DNA of 38,428 nucleotides from a virus. A model generated the notes under the pieces. The model did not search any database and was not told the origin of the DNA. It saw only the letters and a list, made by a program, of their open reading frames with translations. Positions 8,796-32,774 of the stretch are shown here, in pieces (the stretch's first letter is position 1; each line of letters begins with the position of its first letter). Location: IMG/VR virus record IMGVR_UViG_3300004369_000049, positions 1 to 38,428 of that record; one strand, given 5' to 3'. A program made the translations under genes and the position numbers.

Positions 8796-10241
8796 ATGAA
8801 AGATGTAACCCTCATCCGTCTCCCCTACCCGGTACAGCACCGAGCAGTCGGCTGCCTGGTCGGACAAGCCGTAGGCGATGCCCTCGGAGCGCCGTACGAA
8901 TTCGGCCTCCGAGGGCGTTACCGTTCTGAGAACCCGGAAGGCGAGAAGCACTACTACAAGGGCGGTGGATCGTTCGGCTGGGAGCCGGGCGAGTTCACGG
9001 ACGACACGCAGATGGCCGTCGTGCTTGCCCGTTGTCTCTTGAACGACCCGAACAATTACGAGGAATTGTTCCAGCAGTTCAAGAATTGGTCACGTTCGGC
9101 TCGTGATGTCGGTGTTGCGACGTCACGGGCTTTGGCTCATCCCAACTTGGAGAAGTCACGTCAAGACCGTTCACGTGATCCGGAGTCAAGCCGTGGCAAC
9201 GGAGCCGTGATGCGAGTGTCGCCGGTCGGCATTGCCGGGAACAAGTACGGACTCCTTTGGACCGAGAACGTCGCACGAGAGCAGGCGACTGTCACTCATC
9301 ACGATCCACGTACCGTTGAGGCATCGGTCATTACTGCCGTTGCCATCGCTGGAATCATCTCAGGTCAGTTCGCATCGATCGATGAAGCCGTTGGTTATGC
9401 GATCAACAATCACACCAACGTCGAAATGCGCCACTACTTCAATCGCTTGCTAGAGCCAAGCCTGAAGGATGACGACGAGTCGAATTTCCACGGAGACATC
9501 TGCTTGCGAGATGCGGTGCGATCAATTCGTGCAACGAGCAGCTTTGCCGATGCCGTCGAGTATGCAGCGAACCTCGGTGCTGACGCCGACACCGTCGCTG
9601 CCGTCACTGGAGCATTGGCCGGAGCGTTGTACGGCATGCAAGAAATCCCGGTGCGGTGGGCAACCTACGTTCACGGCTACGTCAATGAGCAAGAGACCAC
9701 TCTCGAAGACTTGCAGAAACTCGCCGTGCAACTCGCCGGAGGATCGTGGAAGAAGCGGTCGCCGGACTACAACGGCAAACTGGAGCCGAAACTCATTCAC
9801 TCCGCAGGGGTGTATGCAACGAATCTCGCCGGACTCGAACTGGCATACGACGAGTTTGCCGTCGTTTCGTTGTGCCGTACGTTCGAGGACAACTTGCGGT
9901 TCCCGTATCGCGCACAGTTTTACTTGATCGACGAGCCGGGAGCGAATCCGTCGCTACTGCACGTCATCAACGAAGCGTTTGAGACGATCAACGAGTTCAT
10001 CGTGTCCGGAAAGAAAGTGCTGGTGCATTGCCACGCAGGAGCCAGCCGTACCGGACTCATCCTGAAGGCGTGGTACATGTCCTGGGAGGGCAAGACAGCG
10101 CAGGAAGCCGACGAATGGCTGAAGGACCGCTGGGAGCCATACCGCAAGTCAAACGATGACTTCACCATCGCCCTCAATCAGGTCGGGTTTCAGCACGCAG
10201 TGTTTGGCCACCCGGGTCACTCGTCCGTACACGCATCTTGA
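8796..10241 (+). CDS. ADP-ribosylglycohydrolase fused to a Cys phosphatase, 481 aa
   Basis: Residues 19-285 are an ARH/DraG-type hydrolase: GCLVGQAVGDALGAPYEF, FTDDTQM (68-71 TDDT, metal ligands), RGNGAVMR, and GADADT (261-266, second metal-binding set) followed by the GAL(A)GA helix. It should remove ADP-ribose from a protein, nucleic acid or small molecule. Residues 330-470 are a dual-specificity/tyrosine-type phosphatase: HCHAGASR (411-418, C412 nucleophile, R418) followed by TG. Both active sites look intact. The gene is continuous with no frameshift. The pair could strip ADP-ribose and then dephosphorylate an ADP-ribose product or a protein. It could oppose a host NAD- or ADP-ribosylation defence; this is inference. 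Confidence 0.9.
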   Translation: MKDVTLIRLPYPVQHRAVGCLVGQAVGDALGAPYEFGLRGRYRSENPEGEKHYYKGGGSFGWEPGEFTDDTQMAVVLARCLLNDPNNYEELFQQFKNWSRSARDVGVATSRALAHPNLEKSRQDRSRDPESSRGNGAVMRVSPVGIAGNKYGLLWTENVAREQATVTHHDPRTVEASVITAVAIAGIISGQFASIDEAVGYAINNHTNVEMRHYFNRLLEPSLKDDDESNFHGDICLRDAVRSIRATSSFADAVEYAANLGADADTVAAVTGALAGALYGMQEIPVRWATYVHGYVNEQETTLEDLQKLAVQLAGGSWKKRSPDYNGKLEPKLIHSAGVYATNLAGLELAYDEFAVVSLCRTFEDNLRFPYRAQFYLIDEPGANPSLLHVINEAFETINEFIVSGKKVLVHCHAGASRTGLILKAWYMSWEGKTAQEADEWLKDRWEPYRKSNDDFTIALNQVGFQHAVFGHPGHSSVHAS

Positions 10242-14311: not shown

Positions 14312-14826
14312 TCAAGTTCACCAGTCATGAACTTTTGATTGCGGGACTTTCTGGCGTGCAGCGTCGTGTTGCAGCTCTCGGCAAGGGTCGGCCCGCGTAC
14401 CACGGAGCTGACGATCGTCCGGAGAACAACTGGCAGATCGACATCATGGGCGTCATGGGTGAGATGGCGGTGTCGAAGGCGTTCAAGAAGTTCTGGAACC
14501 CAGCAGCAACGGACGGCAACCTCTCCGAACTGGAGGGGGACGTGGAGAAGTTCCAGGTGCGCTCAACCGGGTATGCGAGTGGCCATCTGATCATGTACGA
14601 GTACGACAAGCCCGATGCTCCGTACATCCTTGCTCTGGTGCGTGAGCCGTGGGTCAAGCTTGTTGGGTGGATGAACCTCGATGGCGCACAAAAGATCGGC
14701 GACGCACGTCCCTCGAAGACGCATATGTGTTACTGGATGCGTCAAGAGCAGCTGTACGAGATGGACGATCTCGGCTCCATCGCCTACGATGACGAGTTCA
14801 TTCGTTGTAGGGAGAAAGTCAAGTGA
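14299..14826 (+). CDS. Hypothetical protein, possibly PD-(D/E)xK-like, 175 aa
   Basis: Contains GEMAVSKAFKKFW (residues 54-66), GDVEKFQVRST (79-89) and a hydrophobic beta strand pair after it. The order Glu helix, then Asp, then Q-x-R/K resembles the restriction-endonuclease-like core in which the catalytic Lys is replaced, but the match is weak and catalysis is not demonstrated. I recall similar GD...QVR proteins near phage replication genes. The GTG start has GAGGAGGAG six bases before it and overlaps WhiB by 13 bases. Confidence 0.7.
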   Translation: MAVLIKFTSHELLIAGLSGVQRRVAALGKGRPAYHGADDRPENNWQIDIMGVMGEMAVSKAFKKFWNPAATDGNLSELEGDVEKFQVRSTGYASGHLIMYEYDKPDAPYILALVREPWVKLVGWMNLDGAQKIGDARPSKTHMCYWMRQEQLYEMDDLGSIAYDDEFIRCREKVK

Positions 14827-16610
14827 CTCGACCAGCAGCCTCCCCGGAGGTTCAGGACTTTCTCGACAAGCTCGATTACGTCAAGACCAGCGGCGACGGA
14901 TGGGCAGCGGCGTGTCCGTGCCGAAACGACGACTCGAACCCGTCTCTTTCGATCAATCAAGGCAATGACGGACGAGTCCTCGTCACGTGCCATAGGGGTG
15001 TGCCGTGCGACGTGAACCAAATCTGCTCGGCGATGGGCATCACGACGGCAGACCTGTACCCGAAAGACTCGCGCAAGAAGAAGGTTGAGGAGAAGGAAGT
15101 CCTCACACTCGTCTCCACGTACGACTACTACGATGAGAACGGCGTTCTGCTGTTCCAGAAGCTCCGCTACGTCAATCAGTGGGGCAAGAAGACGTTTCGC
15201 CAACGGCGGCCAGACGGTAGGGGCGGTTGGCAGTGGGGGTTGGGCGACACGCCAAAGGTGTTGTACAACCTGCCAGCAGTACGTCAGGCAATCAACGACG
15301 GCCAAAAGGTCTACGTCGTCGAAGGCGAGAAAGACGCTGATGCGCTGATCGCACTCGGTCGTGTCGCTACGACGATGCCCGGTGGTGCTGGAACAAACAA
15401 GTGGTTGGACATTCATACCAATGCGTTGGCTGGCGGCAAGGTCGAAGTTATTGCAGACAACGACGAGGTAGGCATCTTTCACGCATGGCAGGTGGTCGAT
15501 TCGCTCACCCAGGCCGAATGTGCAGTCCGTGCGTGGCGCACGCCAGCGGGCAAGGACATCGCTGACTACCTCGCTATGGACGGCGATCTGAGCGAGATGG
15601 TACCTCTCGAACGGCCAACGGACATGGCTCCGGTCGTTGCTGAGGAGAAGGAAGAAGATGGGCTGGCTGATCTTGCGGATCAGGTAGCAAATGTTCTGAC
15701 TCGCTCGGACCTGAGTGAGTCGCAGAAGCTTTCCCGTGCGTCGATGTTGATTGGGGCGCACAACAGGCCGGCTGTTGTCCCATCCGGCCGGCTGGTCAAT
15801 TGGCAAGAGTTCGTCAATGAGGACGTCGATGACTCATACGATTGGGTCATTCCGGGACTCATCGAGCGTCAGGAACGTGTGATCGTGGTTGCGAGTGAGG
15901 GTGTCGGCAAGACCATGCTTGCACGTCAAATTGCAATTTGCTCGGCAGCTGGGTTGCATCCGTTTAAGTTTTCTCGCATGCCCCCGATCACCACCCTGAC
16001 GATCGACTTGGAGAATCCGGAGCGCATCATTCGGCGTACATCTCGCAGCATCATGACTAGCGCACAGAAGTATGGGTTTGTCCAGAATGTGCGAGCGCAT
16101 CTGGTGATCCAGCCCGCTGGCTTGGACTTACTGAAACCCTCGGACCGCTCGTTCATTGAACAGCAGATCGAGGCAGTCAAACCAGACCTCATTTGTATGG
16201 GACCGCTCTACAAGTCCTTTATCGACCCTGGGGGCCGTACCAGCGAGGCGATCGCCGTGGAGATCGCCAAGTACCTCGACATGATCCGAGATGTCTACAA
16301 CTGCGCTCTTTGGCTCGAACATCATGCTCCTCTCGGTGGATCGATGGCTACACGTGATCTGCGGCCGTTTGGTTCGGCCGTGTGGTCACGCTGGCCTGAG
16401 TTCGGACTCAGCCTACAGCCAGACCCGACATCAACGGAAGGCTATGTGTACGAGGTCAAGCATTTCCGAGGTGAACGAGATTTGCGTGAGTTTCCGACTA
16501 AAATGAAGCGAGGCACTACATTTCCGTTTGACGTGCTGAATTTCCGTGAGGTCCCCGAATGGCGTCCCAAAAAGGGCTATCAAGAGAGTTTCTCGCAGAG
16601 CGAGACCTGA
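14823..16610 (+). CDS. Primase-helicase (zinc finger, Toprim, RecA-type ATPase), 595 aa
   Basis: Three domains. A CHC2-like zinc region has CPC at 31-33 and C56, C62, C68. A Toprim primase core spans about 95-255: VVEGEKDADAL with E167 and ADNDE with D212/D214. A RepA/AAA_25-type ATPase starts at about 340: ASEGVGKT (357-364, Walker A), TLTIDLENPE (Walker B region), and WLEHHAPLGG. It should prime and unwind DNA during phage replication. The ATPase is of the RepA-like kind rather than a classical DnaB. The GTG start overlaps the upstream stop (GTGA), and its end overlaps the next gene by 52 bases. Confidence 0.9.
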   Translation: MTRPAASPEVQDFLDKLDYVKTSGDGWAAACPCRNDDSNPSLSINQGNDGRVLVTCHRGVPCDVNQICSAMGITTADLYPKDSRKKKVEEKEVLTLVSTYDYYDENGVLLFQKLRYVNQWGKKTFRQRRPDGRGGWQWGLGDTPKVLYNLPAVRQAINDGQKVYVVEGEKDADALIALGRVATTMPGGAGTNKWLDIHTNALAGGKVEVIADNDEVGIFHAWQVVDSLTQAECAVRAWRTPAGKDIADYLAMDGDLSEMVPLERPTDMAPVVAEEKEEDGLADLADQVANVLTRSDLSESQKLSRASMLIGAHNRPAVVPSGRLVNWQEFVNEDVDDSYDWVIPGLIERQERVIVVASEGVGKTMLARQIAICSAAGLHPFKFSRMPPITTLTIDLENPERIIRRTSRSIMTSAQKYGFVQNVRAHLVIQPAGLDLLKPSDRSFIEQQIEAVKPDLICMGPLYKSFIDPGGRTSEAIAVEIAKYLDMIRDVYNCALWLEHHAPLGGSMATRDLRPFGSAVWSRWPEFGLSLQPDPTSTEGYVYEVKHFRGERDLREFPTKMKRGTTFPFDVLNFREVPEWRPKKGYQESFSQSET

Positions 16611-18788: not shown

Positions 18789-18862
18789 GCCAGGTGGTCC
18801 GAACGGTTTGACGGAGGCACTCTTATATAGTGCTTGAGCAGGTTCGATTCCTGCACCTGGTA
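18789..18862 (+). tRNA. tRNA-Ile (anticodon UAU)
   Basis: Folds as a full cloverleaf: acceptor GCCAGGT/ACCTGGT with G1-U72, D-arm TCCG/CGGA with GG in the loop, anticodon arm GCACT/AGTGC with loop CTTATAT (anticodon TAT), T-arm GCAGG-TTCGATT-CCTGC, discriminator A, no encoded CCA. It would read AUA. Odd points: G at position 8, where U is nearly universal, and a UAU wobble base, unusual because bacteria generally read AUA with a lysidine-modified CAU tRNA. Confidence 0.78.
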
Positions 18863-18867
18863 CGCAC

Positions 18868-21395: not shown

Positions 21396-21402
21396 GAGAC
21401 AA

Positions 21403-21424
21403 GGGGCAGGGGAAACCCTGCCCC
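21403..21424 (+). terminator. Terminator of 21106-21395
   Basis: GGGGCAGGG, loop GAAA, CCCTGCCCC, followed by TCTCTCATT: a perfect 9-bp stem marking the left edge of the gene-free origin-like segment. Confidence 0.75.
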
Positions 21425-21440
21425 TCTCTCATTGGGCCTT

Positions 21441-21467
21441 GTGAGGCTCTGTGAGGCTCTGTGAGGC
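21441..21467 (+). repeat. Tandem 10-bp repeat GTGAGGCTCT x2.7
   Basis: Two perfect units and a partial third. A GGCACGGCACGG-type repeat follows near 21508-21540. Both precede the DnaA-box array. Short direct repeats beside DnaA sites resemble iterons but no initiator gene is adjacent. Confidence 0.6.
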
Positions 21468-21550
21468 GTGGCATGCCCTCTGGGTGCGTCGGTGGCTCTG
21501 GGGCATGGCAGGCACGGCACGGCACGGTAGGGCAGGCACAGGGTCTGGGG

Positions 21551-21622
21551 GTGTCCACAGGGTGTGGATAAGGGTGTGGATAAGGTCTGTCCACAGGCTG
21601 TGGATAACCCTGTGGATGACGG
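21551..21622 (+). other. Array of six DnaA-box-like sites, 12-bp period (putative origin)
   Basis: Nine-base sites start at 21551, 21563, 21575, 21587, 21599 and 21611, exactly 12 bp apart. Sites 2, 3 and 5 are TGTGGATAA, the complement of the perfect box TTATCCACA; site 6 is TGTGGATGA; sites 1 and 4 are (G/C)TGTCCACA in the opposite direction, one base from the actinobacterial TTGTCCACA. Orientation is therefore F-R-R-F-R-R. An AT-rich stretch follows. It is likely to bind host DnaA; whether it starts replication is inference. Confidence 0.75.
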
Positions 21623-21671
21623 GGTAGAGAGTCCCGTGCGGACTTTCCGGACAGGGGTGGGGTGTGTGGGA

Positions 21672-21722
21672 GCCAATACGACACTATTTAAGCTCCCACT
21701 TTTTCAACTAGATTTAGCCAAT
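21672..21722. other. AT-rich segment beside the DnaA array
   Basis: After very GC-rich sequence, about 50 bases (around ACTATTTAAGCTCCC and TTTTTCAACTAGATTTAGCC) are markedly AT-rich and run into the end of the deaminase gene. It could be the unwinding element of an origin. Confidence 0.4.
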
Positions 21723-22129
21723 CCCCTTGGTTTGCGGGCTATCTGACCCAGCTTGTTGACTCGTGCTTTGGCTATGCCGCCGTTGTCGGTCCAGACTGCG
21801 GTTTGTATGCCGGCTAGCTCGAGCAGCTCTTGGCACGTCTCGCAGGGTCGGGCGATGCTGACGTATCCGCTTCGGGTGATACGTGCGACGTATATGGTTG
21901 CGCCTTCGGTTGATCCGGCTCGTCGGATGGCTACTTCTTCGGCATGGTACGACACGTCGTTTTTCCCGACGATGGCTGGATCGTTGCGGTAGCGGTTGTT
22001 TCCTCTGCCCAATACTCGTCCTGATCGTACGACGATTGCTCCGACCTTCCACTGTGGGTGTTCGGAGTTCATTGCCTCTTCTATCGCTGCATTGATGTAC
22101 TTGTAGTCACTCGTCTTGATGTAAGCCAT
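21704..22129 (-). CDS. Cytidine/deoxycytidylate deaminase, 141 aa
   Basis: HAEE at 62-65 (zinc ligand His and catalytic Glu) and PCETC at 95-99 (two zinc Cys) are the complete CDA-family active site. Family members convert dCMP to dUMP or cytidine to uridine. The N-terminal helix and size suit a dCMP/ComEB-type or small-molecule deaminase. With NrdJ and MazG it supports nucleotide supply. Noticeably more AT-rich than genes left of 21.4 kb. Ribosome binding site is weak. Confidence 0.88.
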   Translation of the reverse strand: MAYIKTSDYKYINAAIEEAMNSEHPQWKVGAIVVRSGRVLGRGNNRYRNDPAIVGKNDVSYHAEEVAIRRAGSTEGATIYVARITRSGYVSIARPCETCQELLELAGIQTAVWTDNGGIAKARVNKLGQIARKPRGLAKSS

Positions 22130-23246: not shown

Positions 23247-23873
23247 CTAATCCTCGAGACAAGTTATGATGTTGAATGCAATTGTTACTCGCTCTAAATT
23301 AATTGTCCTCTCTTTTACCCAATGGACTAGATCTGAAGGGAAAATCAACATGTCTCCTCGCCTTCCGGGGAAATTAATGTTGTTTTCAAAACATGTTTCC
23401 GACCCCTCTAGGCCACTAACGTAAATCACACCAGAAAAGTAACCATAATGAGAATGCATTGGCGCACTATCACCCATTATTGAAAAATTCACCCAAAAGT
23501 CGTAATCACTAAAATGACCCGGCTTTCTGTTCAAGCGAAAAACTTTAGCTAGATGCAAGGTATCGAAAGATGCTCCCGTAAGACGCGAATGCATAACTTC
23601 GGCGGCGGTCAATACAAAAGCCATGGCAGTTGAAGTACTTAAAATGTTCTGAGGAACGGAACACTGGAAAGTATTTTGGCCAGCGTTATCATGATGCATT
23701 AGAAACGAGTATGGGCGCTCTTTAATGCTGCGGCACGCATCGACCATTTCATCAATTTCGCTCATTATCAGTTCGGGAATCACCCCGTGAAAGATTGGCT
23801 TAGGTTCTAGCGCAAGGAACTTAAAATTGTTGAAAAGAAGATTTCGTTTATTTGACGCTGAATCCTCAGTCAT
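23247..23873 (-). CDS. 2-Oxoglutarate/Fe(II) oxygenase, 208 aa
   Basis: Fits the phage-type 2OG-Fe(II) oxygenase pattern: MHSHYGYFSGVIYV (H140, H142), a beta core with GRRGDMLIFPSDLVHWV (H184 as the distal iron ligand), and R195 followed by TIAFN for 2-oxoglutarate. It should hydroxylate or otherwise oxidise an unknown substrate, small molecule or protein. The ATG at 23873 overlaps the end of 23866-24300 by eight bases. One of three iron-dependent oxygenases in the window, belonging to a different subfamily from the other two. Confidence 0.82.
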   Translation of the reverse strand: MTEDSASNKRNLLFNNFKFLALEPKPIFHGVIPELIMSEIDEMVDACRSIKERPYSFLMHHDNAGQNTFQCSVPQNILSTSTAMAFVLTAAEVMHSRLTGASFDTLHLAKVFRLNRKPGHFSDYDFWVNFSIMGDSAPMHSHYGYFSGVIYVSGLEGSETCFENNINFPGRRGDMLIFPSDLVHWVKERTINLERVTIAFNIITCLED

Positions 23874-24300
23874 ATCCTGTCCATGGCTCGTACGCCTTGA
23901 TGAACCCTTCGCATGCATCGAGAGCGCTGTTCAGCTTTTGGTCCACCCCGTTGCCGCGAACTTCCCAGGGCCAGTTCCGGGAGTTCTCTCCAAGTTCATT
24001 GACGCTGACATAGAGGTCCTTCAAAATCTGAATAGCACCCTCGAGTTGGGATAAATTTATCTGAACTTGCTGTGCTTCATACCGAAGGGCCAATGCAGCT
24101 TCCCTACAGAGTGGGTCATAGCGAACTTCGTGCTGTTCGTTGAGAAGGTCGATCAGTTGATGGGTGTGAGTGAGCGCAACAGAGGTTTGGGTTGGGGTGT
24201 CGACGACGAAAGTCTTCATATGTTCGCCAGTGGCGCGAGTGGTGACACCGACCATTGCGATGGCACGAGCGTGAGCTGATTTCATTTCGTCAAAATCCAT
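23866..24300 (-). CDS. Hypothetical helical protein, 144 aa
   Basis: Long helices (REAALALRYEAQQVQIN, QLEGAIQILKDLYVSVNELG) and a Trp-containing C-terminus (NWPWEVRGNGVDQKLN). Not recognised; no metal or membrane motif. GGAG lies before the ATG. Overlaps the oxygenase gene downstream, so it may be its partner. Confidence 0.7.
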   Translation of the reverse strand: MDFDEMKSAHARAIAMVGVTTRATGEHMKTFVVDTPTQTSVALTHTHQLIDLLNEQHEVRYDPLCREAALALRYEAQQVQINLSQLEGAIQILKDLYVSVNELGENSRNWPWEVRGNGVDQKLNSALDACEGFIKAYEPWTGYD

Positions 24301-30576: not shown

Positions 30577-31368
30577 TTAGGCCTTTGGTTGGGTCGATTC
30601 GTACTGGATATTGTCTTGAATCGGGAAATACCAGCCCCCATTTGGCGACTGGATCGCTTTGGGCATATCATCTCGATGATGGATCCCAGAATAATGAGCG
30701 ATCAAACTCCGCCGCTCCATCCCAGGTACATTTGGCCGCGACCCACGATGCATGAGTCGTCCGTGCCAGACAAGGACATCGCCACGACTGGGCAGATGGC
30801 TAACAATAGGCGCGTTGCGTTTCTCGATTTCTTCTTCAAAAAGAGGCGTAAGAATTCGCTCTGAGAACTTCGGCCAACGGTGATCCTGCTCATCAGGACC
30901 CAATGCTCCGAGGATTAGTTCTCTGGTCACTTGCGGCCACCTATGAGAGCCAGGCACATACTGGAATGGCCCAGAATCAGGATGAATATCGTCTAGAGCC
31001 ACCCATATGGCGGCATAGTAATCGCCAACTCCTGGTGGGTTCAGATAGGAGTCTTGGTGCCAATCTCTTTCGGTTGTCTTCCAGCCCGTCAAGTTGAGAT
31101 GTACGCCGGCCGGCTCACCTATTAAGGCTTCGAGAAGGCCGCCAAGCGGACCGTAAGTAAGAACGTTAAACAGTTCTGGGTGCCGCCGATACGGGGTGCA
31201 ATCGGGCCAACCTCCAGGCCGTCCCTCGTTGTGTTCAATCCAGCACCTTTCGTAGGCGATCATGAGATCTTCTGGAATGAAGTTTTCCAGGATTACGACT
31301 CCGTCATCATTCCAGTCAGCTGAACTCACTGGCGGTGGCGGAACTGTCAATTCATCGAAAGTCGGCAT
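30577..31368 (-). CDS. Phytanoyl-CoA dioxygenase-like (PhyH) oxygenase, 263 aa
   Basis: Iron(II)/2-oxoglutarate oxygenase of the PhyH superfamily: WHQDSYLN (H104, D106), GPFQYVPGSH, and HRGSRPN (H207 as the third iron ligand, R211 for 2-oxoglutarate). Full jelly-roll length. Substrate unknown. AGGAGAGC precedes the ATG. It is the third gene of a leftward unit: methyltransferase, HxE oxygenase, PhyH oxygenase. Confidence 0.9.
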   Translation of the reverse strand: MPTFDELTVPPPPVSSADWNDDGVVILENFIPEDLMIAYERCWIEHNEGRPGGWPDCTPYRRHPELFNVLTYGPLGGLLEALIGEPAGVHLNLTGWKTTERDWHQDSYLNPPGVGDYYAAIWVALDDIHPDSGPFQYVPGSHRWPQVTRELILGALGPDEQDHRWPKFSERILTPLFEEEIEKRNAPIVSHLPSRGDVLVWHGRLMHRGSRPNVPGMERRSLIAHYSGIHHRDDMPKAIQSPNGGWYFPIQDNIQYESTQPKA

Positions 31369-31375
31369 TGCTCTC

Positions 31376-32194
31376 CTAAAAAAGCGTTTTGATGACGTAA
31401 TAATTTTCGGGTCCGAAGAAAGCTACGTCCTTGGTTGGTTTTCCAAGACGAATCATAATTCTTTTTAGCCATCTGTCGGTGCCATCGTACTTTGCTTGAA
31501 ACGGGGTTCTTCCATGCACTGTGCTGTGGTTGTGCATAACCAGTGCCTCACCCTTATGCAAATAGATCACTTTTTTGTGTTTAGTTATAGCAGTTGTCAA
31601 AATAGCTAAAGCTGAATCAGCGTCTTTATTCGCGCCCCTCATGAGGGTCTTGTCAAAGGTAATGGACCGCTCATCGTCCGAGAGTATAGAAGTTGATATC
31701 TCAATAGATGCTTGAGTTGACTTGGCAAAACTTTCGTCTATGGACGTCTTAAATACTTTTTGTTTTAGGATGGATTTCACGTCCTCGTCTAACTCAACAA
31801 TGAAATCGTCCAACTGTGAAACGACAGTTCCAGCCTTGGGATCGTCTTTAAGGCAGTACAAAAAAACCGTGTTTGCACGCTCGGAGTGAAAAGCTGTTTC
31901 GGTGTGAAGCTCCAACTCAACGGATGAGGAAGAGGATATTTGATGACTCGTGTCATTTTTTATCGGGAATATGTTTTGTACTACTTTGCCTTTTTGCTCA
32001 TTGGCAAAGCCGTATAGAGTTCCCCAACGTAGAGCATTGATTTTCAGGAGACTGTCAATTTCACGGAATCTTTCTGACTTGTAATAATTAGAATCTAATT
32101 CATCTAAATTATTTGGCGTTGGTGCATCGCCAAGCAGTTCCTCGATGCGACCAGAAGTATCAATCCTGATTACGCGTGCGCCTCGAGGGTTCAT
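31376..32194 (-). CDS. Clavaminate-synthase-like HxE oxygenase, 272 aa
   Basis: LELHTETAFH gives H97-x-E99, the HxE iron ligands of the clavaminate synthase/L-amino-acid beta-hydroxylase group, and STVHGRTPF (H227) with R245 complete the site; RANTVFLYCLKD and FDKTLMRG are also in the family's style. Relatives hydroxylate free or carrier-bound Arg, Asn or lysine. AT-rich and one base downstream of the methyltransferase stop, so part of the same operon. Confidence 0.8.
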   Translation of the reverse strand: MNPRGARVIRIDTSGRIEELLGDAPTPNNLDELDSNYYKSERFREIDSLLKINALRWGTLYGFANEQKGKVVQNIFPIKNDTSHQISSSSSVELELHTETAFHSERANTVFLYCLKDDPKAGTVVSQLDDFIVELDEDVKSILKQKVFKTSIDESFAKSTQASIEISTSILSDDERSITFDKTLMRGANKDADSALAILTTAITKHKKVIYLHKGEALVMHNHSTVHGRTPFQAKYDGTDRWLKRIMIRLGKPTKDVAFFGPENYYVIKTLF

Positions 32195-32195
32195 G

Positions 32196-32774
32196 TTACG
32201 CCCTGCACATGATGGCGAATTGCCAGAACCACTTAGCCACTACGGGCCAGGTGATGCCCGACGCGTCATCTTTCCACGTACGCATAGACGTGTTATTTGG
32301 AATTTTCTCGTAGTAGTCCTGTAGATCCGTGAAGTTAAGGCCAGTGAGCAGGTCCCACACTCGCTGATGATGACAATTCCAGTGATGAGTTGCCCCATCC
32401 CAGAATGCCGTATCAGCCTCTGGTTGGTAATTGTGTTCCTGATGCTCCATTGTGGAAATTACCATTTCCCATGGCTCTTTGTCCTCCCTCCATCGCTGAA
32501 TCGTTTTATATACGTCAGGACCCACGATAAGAATCGGCGCGCCGGGCTTAGCAATGCGACGCATATCAAGGAGAAATGGAGCCACATCATGCCAATCAAT
32601 ATGTTCGATGACATGGCCGAGATAAATAGCGTCAAAATGATTGTCAGGAAAAGGGTAAGGCTGACCCGCTTCAACCACCACATCGGGCTTCGTTTGATCG
32701 CTCGACCAGACATCGCAATTTACCCAACCTTTGGCGTAGTGGGTTCCACAGCCAGCATTTAGAAGGTTTTCCAT
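32196..32774 (-). CDS. SAM-dependent methyltransferase, 192 aa
   Basis: Class I Rossmann methyltransferase: LNAGCG (5-10, SAM-binding motif I), an acidic residue at the end of strand 2 (CDVW), and HVIEHID (54-60), the type-11 signature. The C-terminal part is unusual, His/Trp-rich (GATHHWNCHHQRVWDLL), which might bind a metal or substrate. First gene of the oxygenase operon. It could methylate a small molecule, glycan or protein; no DNA-methylase motif (NPPY or PCQ) is present. Confidence 0.85.
   Translation of the reverse strand: MENLLNAGCGTHYAKGWVNCDVWSSDQTKPDVVVEAGQPYPFPDNHFDAIYLGHVIEHIDWHDVAPFLLDMRRIAKPGAPILIVGPDVYKTIQRWREDKEPWEMVISTMEHQEHNYQPEADTAFWDGATHHWNCHHQRVWDLLTGLNFTDLQDYYEKIPNNTSMRTWKDDASGITWPVVAKWFWQFAIMCRA

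Follow-up and report, generated by a model that had tools for sequence, protein, structure and literature searches.

The stretch at 21,551 to 21,622 of IMG/VR record IMGVR_UViG_3300004369_000049 raises the question of why a phage should carry six DnaA-box-like sites in strict register in DNA that is free of genes. Large lytic actinophages are mostly thought to replicate with their own machinery. The record is a linear viral contig of 38,428 bp, a fragment of a genome, and the whole of it is referred to here as the window. It encodes an SNF2-type helicase, a DUF932 protein, a Toprim/AAA primase-helicase, a dCMP deaminase, a B12-type ribonucleotide reductase, 2OG oxygenases and a major capsid protein. 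The oxygenases are predicted to be of the 2OG-Fe(II) type (2OG-FeII_Oxy_5, PhyH, TauD) and lie at 23247–23918, 30577–31368 and 31376–32194. A methyltransferase follows at 32196–32774, and the PhyH, TauD and methyltransferase genes adjoin the capsid gene. Also present are a tRNA-Ile with the anticodon TAT (18789–18863) and an ADP-ribosylglycohydrolase fused to a dual-specificity phosphatase-like domain (8796–10241). The nearest known capsids are those of Brevibacterium and Gordonia phages (46–49%), and the primase matches with the best coverage are to Arthrobacter phages (~30%). On the basis of these matches, the host is most likely an actinobacterium.

The window carries a real DnaA-box-type array. 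The first-pass annotation had described six sites with a 12-bp period in the orientation F-R-R-F-R-R, and reading the sequence and locating the boxes recovered all of them exactly so. Every step between the 9-mer starts is exactly 12 bp, and three of the six boxes are perfect copies of TTATCCACA (Table 1). The two halves of the array, 21551–21586 and 21587–21622, are direct repeats (28/36 identical, with a 30-nt core at 87% identity at a spacing of 36), and therefore the real unit is the F-R-R triplet, present in two copies.

Table 1. Coordinates of the array, its flanks and the primase-helicase gene in the window
Feature	Position	Strand	Sequence or remark
Toprim/AAA primase-helicase gene (phage)	14823–16610	+	possible user of an origin; query for relatives
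GC-rich hairpin, strong	21400–21431	+	z −3.69; directly past the last + strand ORF left of the array
First F-R-R DnaA-box triplet	21551–21583	+	steps 12/12 bp
Triplet 1, box F	21551–21559		GTGTCCACA (+ strand letters)
Triplet 1, box R, perfect	21563–21571		TGTGGATAA (+ strand letters)
Triplet 1, second box R, perfect	21575–21583		TGTGGATAA (+ strand letters)
Second F-R-R DnaA-box triplet	21587–21619	+	steps 12/12 bp; direct repeat of the first at 36 bp
Triplet 2, box F	21587–21595		CTGTCCACA (+ strand letters)
Triplet 2, box R, perfect	21599–21607		TGTGGATAA (+ strand letters)
Triplet 2, second box R, one mismatch	21611–21619		TGTGGATGA (+ strand letters)
Hairpin GTGGGAGC/GCTCCCAC, then TTTTT	21666–21704	+	probable intrinsic terminator
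dCMP/cytidine deaminase-like gene	21704–22129	−	right neighbour, 3′ end towards the array; flank, outside the array

Chance does not account for the cluster, as the annotation had also supposed of a periodic array. When a site was defined as TTATCCACA with at most one mismatch or as the TTGTCCACA type, the maximum within 70 bp was six sites in the window, as against two in 150 order-1 Markov shuffles of the whole window. The shuffled windows held ~7 sites each in total, and the Poisson estimate for a six-site cluster is ~2e-11. Several 9-mers with no more than one mismatch to TTATCCACA or TTGTCCACA thus lie close together beyond chance, which is what defines a DnaA-box cluster.

The array resides in a gene-free stretch of 307 bp (about 21397–21703) between the 3′ ends of converging genes. 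The hairpin on the left is a possible terminator and has no U-run. The “AT-rich stretch” consists mainly of the loop and T-run of the right-hand hairpin, ~50–90 bp to the right of the array, and has more the character of a terminator than of a melting element. The annotation's account of the surroundings is hence right, with this reservation about the AT-rich DNA.

No direct DNA homologue of the whole region was found in the phage collection. The dCMP deaminase was tried as an anchor and gave only matches of 27–37%, which are not true relatives. The primase, used as a query, returned nine relatives, one of them 88% identical on a short contig and the others 51–58%; the larger records were examined piecewise. 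The relative G004 (51.9 kb) has ten core-matching boxes and two F boxes within 158 bp, with two 12/12 F-R-R triplets inside a ~69-bp repeat. A shorter array with one 12/12 F-R-R triplet is found in G008 (39.6 kb), and a weak box cluster with a 12-bp step in G009 (104.8 kb). The triplets of G004 and G008 lie in non-coding DNA. All of these arrays, that of the window and the G009 cluster included, are located 7–13 kb upstream of a ribonucleotide reductase gene and in the same sense. No such array was found in G005 (137 kb), which has the same primase. The spacing is conserved where the array exists, and the array itself is not universal among the relatives. The same 12-bp period, for which a search of related phages had been proposed, recurs in G004 and G008, and it is shared by numerous unrelated phages and by the DNA that adjoins host dnaA genes.

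A likeness between the AT-rich flanks of the window and those of G004 and G008 was considered and dropped, as in the window this flank lies at the 3′ end of the deaminase gene. Palindromes of the form GAACN4GTTC, which resemble actinobacterial LexA/SOS operators, directly adjoin the box arrays in all three array-bearing relatives (positions 1303–1376 of L234, from G004; 596–607 of L244, from G008; and 95325–95351 of L250, from G009, in record coordinates). There are five in G004, ~15–17 bp apart, three of them exact. No such palindrome adjoins the array of the window, and of the 19 unrelated F-R-R loci only one has a copy close by.

The exact pattern TGTCCACA-N3-TGTGGATAA-N3-TGTGGATAA was searched more widely. 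It occurs in 31 IMG/VR contigs, as against 4 of the 11.3 million bacterial/archaeal contigs of a 257-Gb set, and none of these four is recorded as actinobacterial. The viral consensus of the triplet is CTGTCCACAGSCTGTGGATAANNCTGTGGATAACTTT. The notion that the viral contigs are just host oriC was rejected on these counts and on the terminase and portal genes of a viral family among them. In this family of ~37–41 kb phage contigs, one exact F-R-R module precedes the large terminase gene by ~450 bp. The members of the family are the L022–L033-type contigs (e.g., L028, 8713–8744), in which the module has a long conserved flank ending in ACGCCCGACCGCGTTGCCAAC.

The spacing itself is favoured. In an unbiased IMG/VR sample, not chosen by spacing and with gaps of 0–25 allowed, 56 non-redundant F-R-R cases were obtained among the matches listed; 10 of these had the spacing 12/12 and 8 the spacing 15/12, which are proportions of the listed matches and not totals. 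The expectation is 0.08 per spacing combination (676 combinations), and under a uniform model the 12/12 count, again for the matches listed, has P ~2e-18. An earlier pooled count was biased by loci picked for 12/12 and is excluded from these frequencies. R-R pairs alone, among the matches listed, cluster at 11, 12, 13, 20–22 and 32–34 bp, i.e., near helical turns.

Known phages carry the module as well, many of them as a single triplet. Microbacterium phage Big4 has two near-terminal copies of a near-exact triplet. Streptomyces phages have a near-exact triplet whose F box is degenerate, placed in a ~1.5–1.8-kb non-coding gap, and Lactococcus phage 949 has a triplet with the F box TTATTAACA in a 1.1-kb AT-rich gap. 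The modules of phage 949 and of Streptomyces phage Kenrey lie in long non-coding gaps that are repeat-rich or AT-rich. Big4, Kenrey, MW202795, phage 949 and the L028-type contigs have the non-coding F-R-R 12/12 arrangement in common with the window; theirs is one triplet with a downstream CTTT/AT-rich tail, whereas the window has two triplets without the tail.

DnaA boxes in phage DNA were known before, from the injection stop signal of T5 (PMC13250531) and from an Ori-Finder prediction in a Pseudomonas phage (PMC11512268). The first-step-transfer region of T5-like phages, with the injection stop signal, resembles the window in being non-coding phage DNA with consensus DnaA boxes, some of them at 12 bp (PMC13250531). 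A block of bound DnaA could pause DNA transfer or mark a genome end, as proposed for T5. The modules close to genome ends or in terminal repeats (Big4, T5-like Spc35, Tiff81), and those that the L028 family has close to its terminase gene, would suit such a signal for DNA entry or packaging. It is nonetheless very unlikely as the role of the array: in the T5-like phages the R-R pairs lack an opposed F box and are set in terminal repeats, the host phylum differs, MW202795 is a circular record, and for T5 itself the idea is still an unproven proposal.

Equivalent triplets lie next to dnaA in three of the four actinobacterial chromosome pieces examined. On the Arthrobacter piece, which is labelled as a plasmid, a 12/12 triplet lies in the promoter region of dnaA, starting ~105 bp ahead of the gene, and a 15/12 triplet starts 29 bp past the dnaA stop; these are the two spacings favoured in the viral sample. 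In Nonomuraea a 12/12 triplet directly follows dnaA, in Nocardia an 11/12 triplet lies upstream of it, and none was found at the Tsukamurella dnaA locus. Scanned under equal mismatch limits, neither 293 kb of background phage DNA nor shuffles yielded a triplet. E. coli oriC and four dnaA-bearing records from Bacillota or Paracoccus, a poor sample with some plasmid-labelled pieces, gave no 12-bp triplet. The host triplets are like those of the phage in order, in a II–III step of 12 bp and in being non-coding, and have I–II steps of 11, 12 or 15 bp. Their boxes are more degenerate, whereas the phage array consists of two tandem triplets with no adjoining dnaA. It is highly probable, given the near-perfect consensus sites, the strict phasing and this host counterpart, that host DnaA binds the array.

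Three records used here, NZ_AP024649.1 (L354), NZ_LT559118.1 (L356) and NZ_LN868939.1 (L357), are filed as plasmids and carry chromosomal-type dnaA loci. They are probably chromosomes or chromosome pieces.

The position of the Arthrobacter triplet in a promoter region brings up a further possibility, namely that the array acts in transcription, as a DnaA-regulated operator, or as a structured RNA formed from the opposed boxes. The Big4 module is followed directly by promoter-like hexamers of the next gene, and the predicted RNA fold of the window array beats shuffles with a z of −3.5. Such a fold is, however, an automatic consequence of opposed boxes, and no Rfam match was found for the window array. 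An operator role is unlikely in the window phage because the genes on either side have their 3′ ends facing the array, where no promoter-like site was detected. Taken together, a transcriptional or RNA element is an extremely improbable reading.

The 12-bp step had been called unlike the classical spacing of oriC, and this view was not supported. The low-affinity sites of E. coli oriC are exactly 2 bp apart, an 11-bp step, and R4 and C1 are 3 bp apart (PMC4451416). These arrays share with the window tightly packed boxes at a near-helical step; their boxes are degenerate and point in one direction within an array, whereas those of the window are near-consensus, arranged F-R-R and without a clear melting element. 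The cores of DARS1 and DARS2, measured directly in E. coli MG1655, are both F-R-R with the spacing 14/12. The dnaA-adjacent triplets and the two DARS cores thus show that a step of 12 bp occurs elsewhere in DnaA biology. DARS2 was missed by a stricter triplet scan with another mismatch rule, and its boxes are taken from the direct measurement.

Each DARS core has three boxes, of which the first (I) is opposed in orientation to the other two (II and III; PMC5742627). The opposed boxes I and II are the defining and essential feature (PMC5742627; PMC10380432; PMC8682772), and their head-to-head arrangement has been called functionally essential (PMC10380432). The window triplet has box I opposed to II and III, and a II–III step of 12 bp, identical to that of DARS1 and DARS2. 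Its I–II step is 12 bp and not 14 bp, so the strict DARS spacing is absent, and the host phylum differs. By analogy, the phage triplet plausibly works like a DARS-type DnaA assembly. The stronger claim would be that the triplets make bound ADP-DnaA release its ADP, regenerating ATP-DnaA for initiation by the phage or the host. Mobile elements can carry such a site, as it was in the origin of plasmid ColE1 that the first DARS came to light (PMC5835720); no triplet was resolved in the ColE1 DARS at the mismatch limits used. The I–II step and the description of DARS from proteobacteria tell against this claim, which is judged improbable.

The skew of the window is ambiguous. Its GC skew, which the annotation had proposed to check for a switch, changes slope at the array, but the gene strand switches at the same place. 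The array of MW202795 lies within ~2 kb of the GC-skew minimum, and it is the only one so placed among the other array-bearing phages checked. GC skew does not point to the array as the origin in the window, Kenrey or phage 949.

The full statement favoured here, held with about even confidence, is that the array may be a host-DnaA assembly platform which most likely helps to start phage replication. As read from its sequence, it would be a cis-acting platform of two tandem F-R-R triplets like those beside actinobacterial dnaA/oriC. Host DnaA would occupy the R-R pairs head-to-tail and meet F-bound DnaA head-to-head, and six correctly phased boxes could then hold a stable DnaA oligomer on injected or replicating phage DNA. 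This complex would open nearby DNA and/or deliver the replicative helicase/primase, and phage replication would start. Initiation is the most economical role because the array is non-coding, recurs in origin-like gaps, has an oriC/dnaA-type architecture and lies near the skew minimum in MW202795. Confidence is kept near the even mark because the window has no clean melting region, G005 has no array and the skew is ambiguous.

The same boxes might instead act as a sink, whereby accumulating phage copies titrate host DnaA, weaken chromosome initiation and free the replication machinery. A short non-coding stretch packed with high-quality boxes and lacking a promoter close by would fit. The mioC promoter region of E. 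coli has been calculated to hold ~eight DnaA monomers (PMC5835720), and the datA/DARS loci account for much of the titration by the chromosome (PMC12371093). Titration, however, needs box number and not an exact 12-bp phasing with a fixed F-R-R order. Moreover, there are only six boxes in the 38 kb of the window, and many phages carry a single triplet. A sink is considered unlikely, yet together with the DARS reading it is a serious alternative.

A limited search of an open library of papers turned up no account of the F-R-R triplet recurring as a module of phages. If the assembly platform for initiation is taken further, the widespread triplet could be a transferable module that lets lytic phages, across several host phyla, commandeer the DnaA of their hosts. 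It might do so as a viral DARS that converts ADP-DnaA to ATP-DnaA, so that initiation would be licensed by the chemistry of the host initiator; this extension is doubtful. Should a recurrent, exactly spaced DnaA module prove true, many large lytic actinophages would still rely on the host initiator or manipulate it. One testable architecture would then connect the phage elements with DARS chemistry and with oriC/dnaA regulation in the host, and the 12/12 or 15/12 F-R-R pattern would provide a simple sequence mark for candidate phage origins. The 1.8-kb non-coding gap of Kenrey (L161, 736–2570) contains ACCATCGTAAAG repeats, several inverted repeats and one F-R-R module, and it is a good origin candidate in a cultivable phage.
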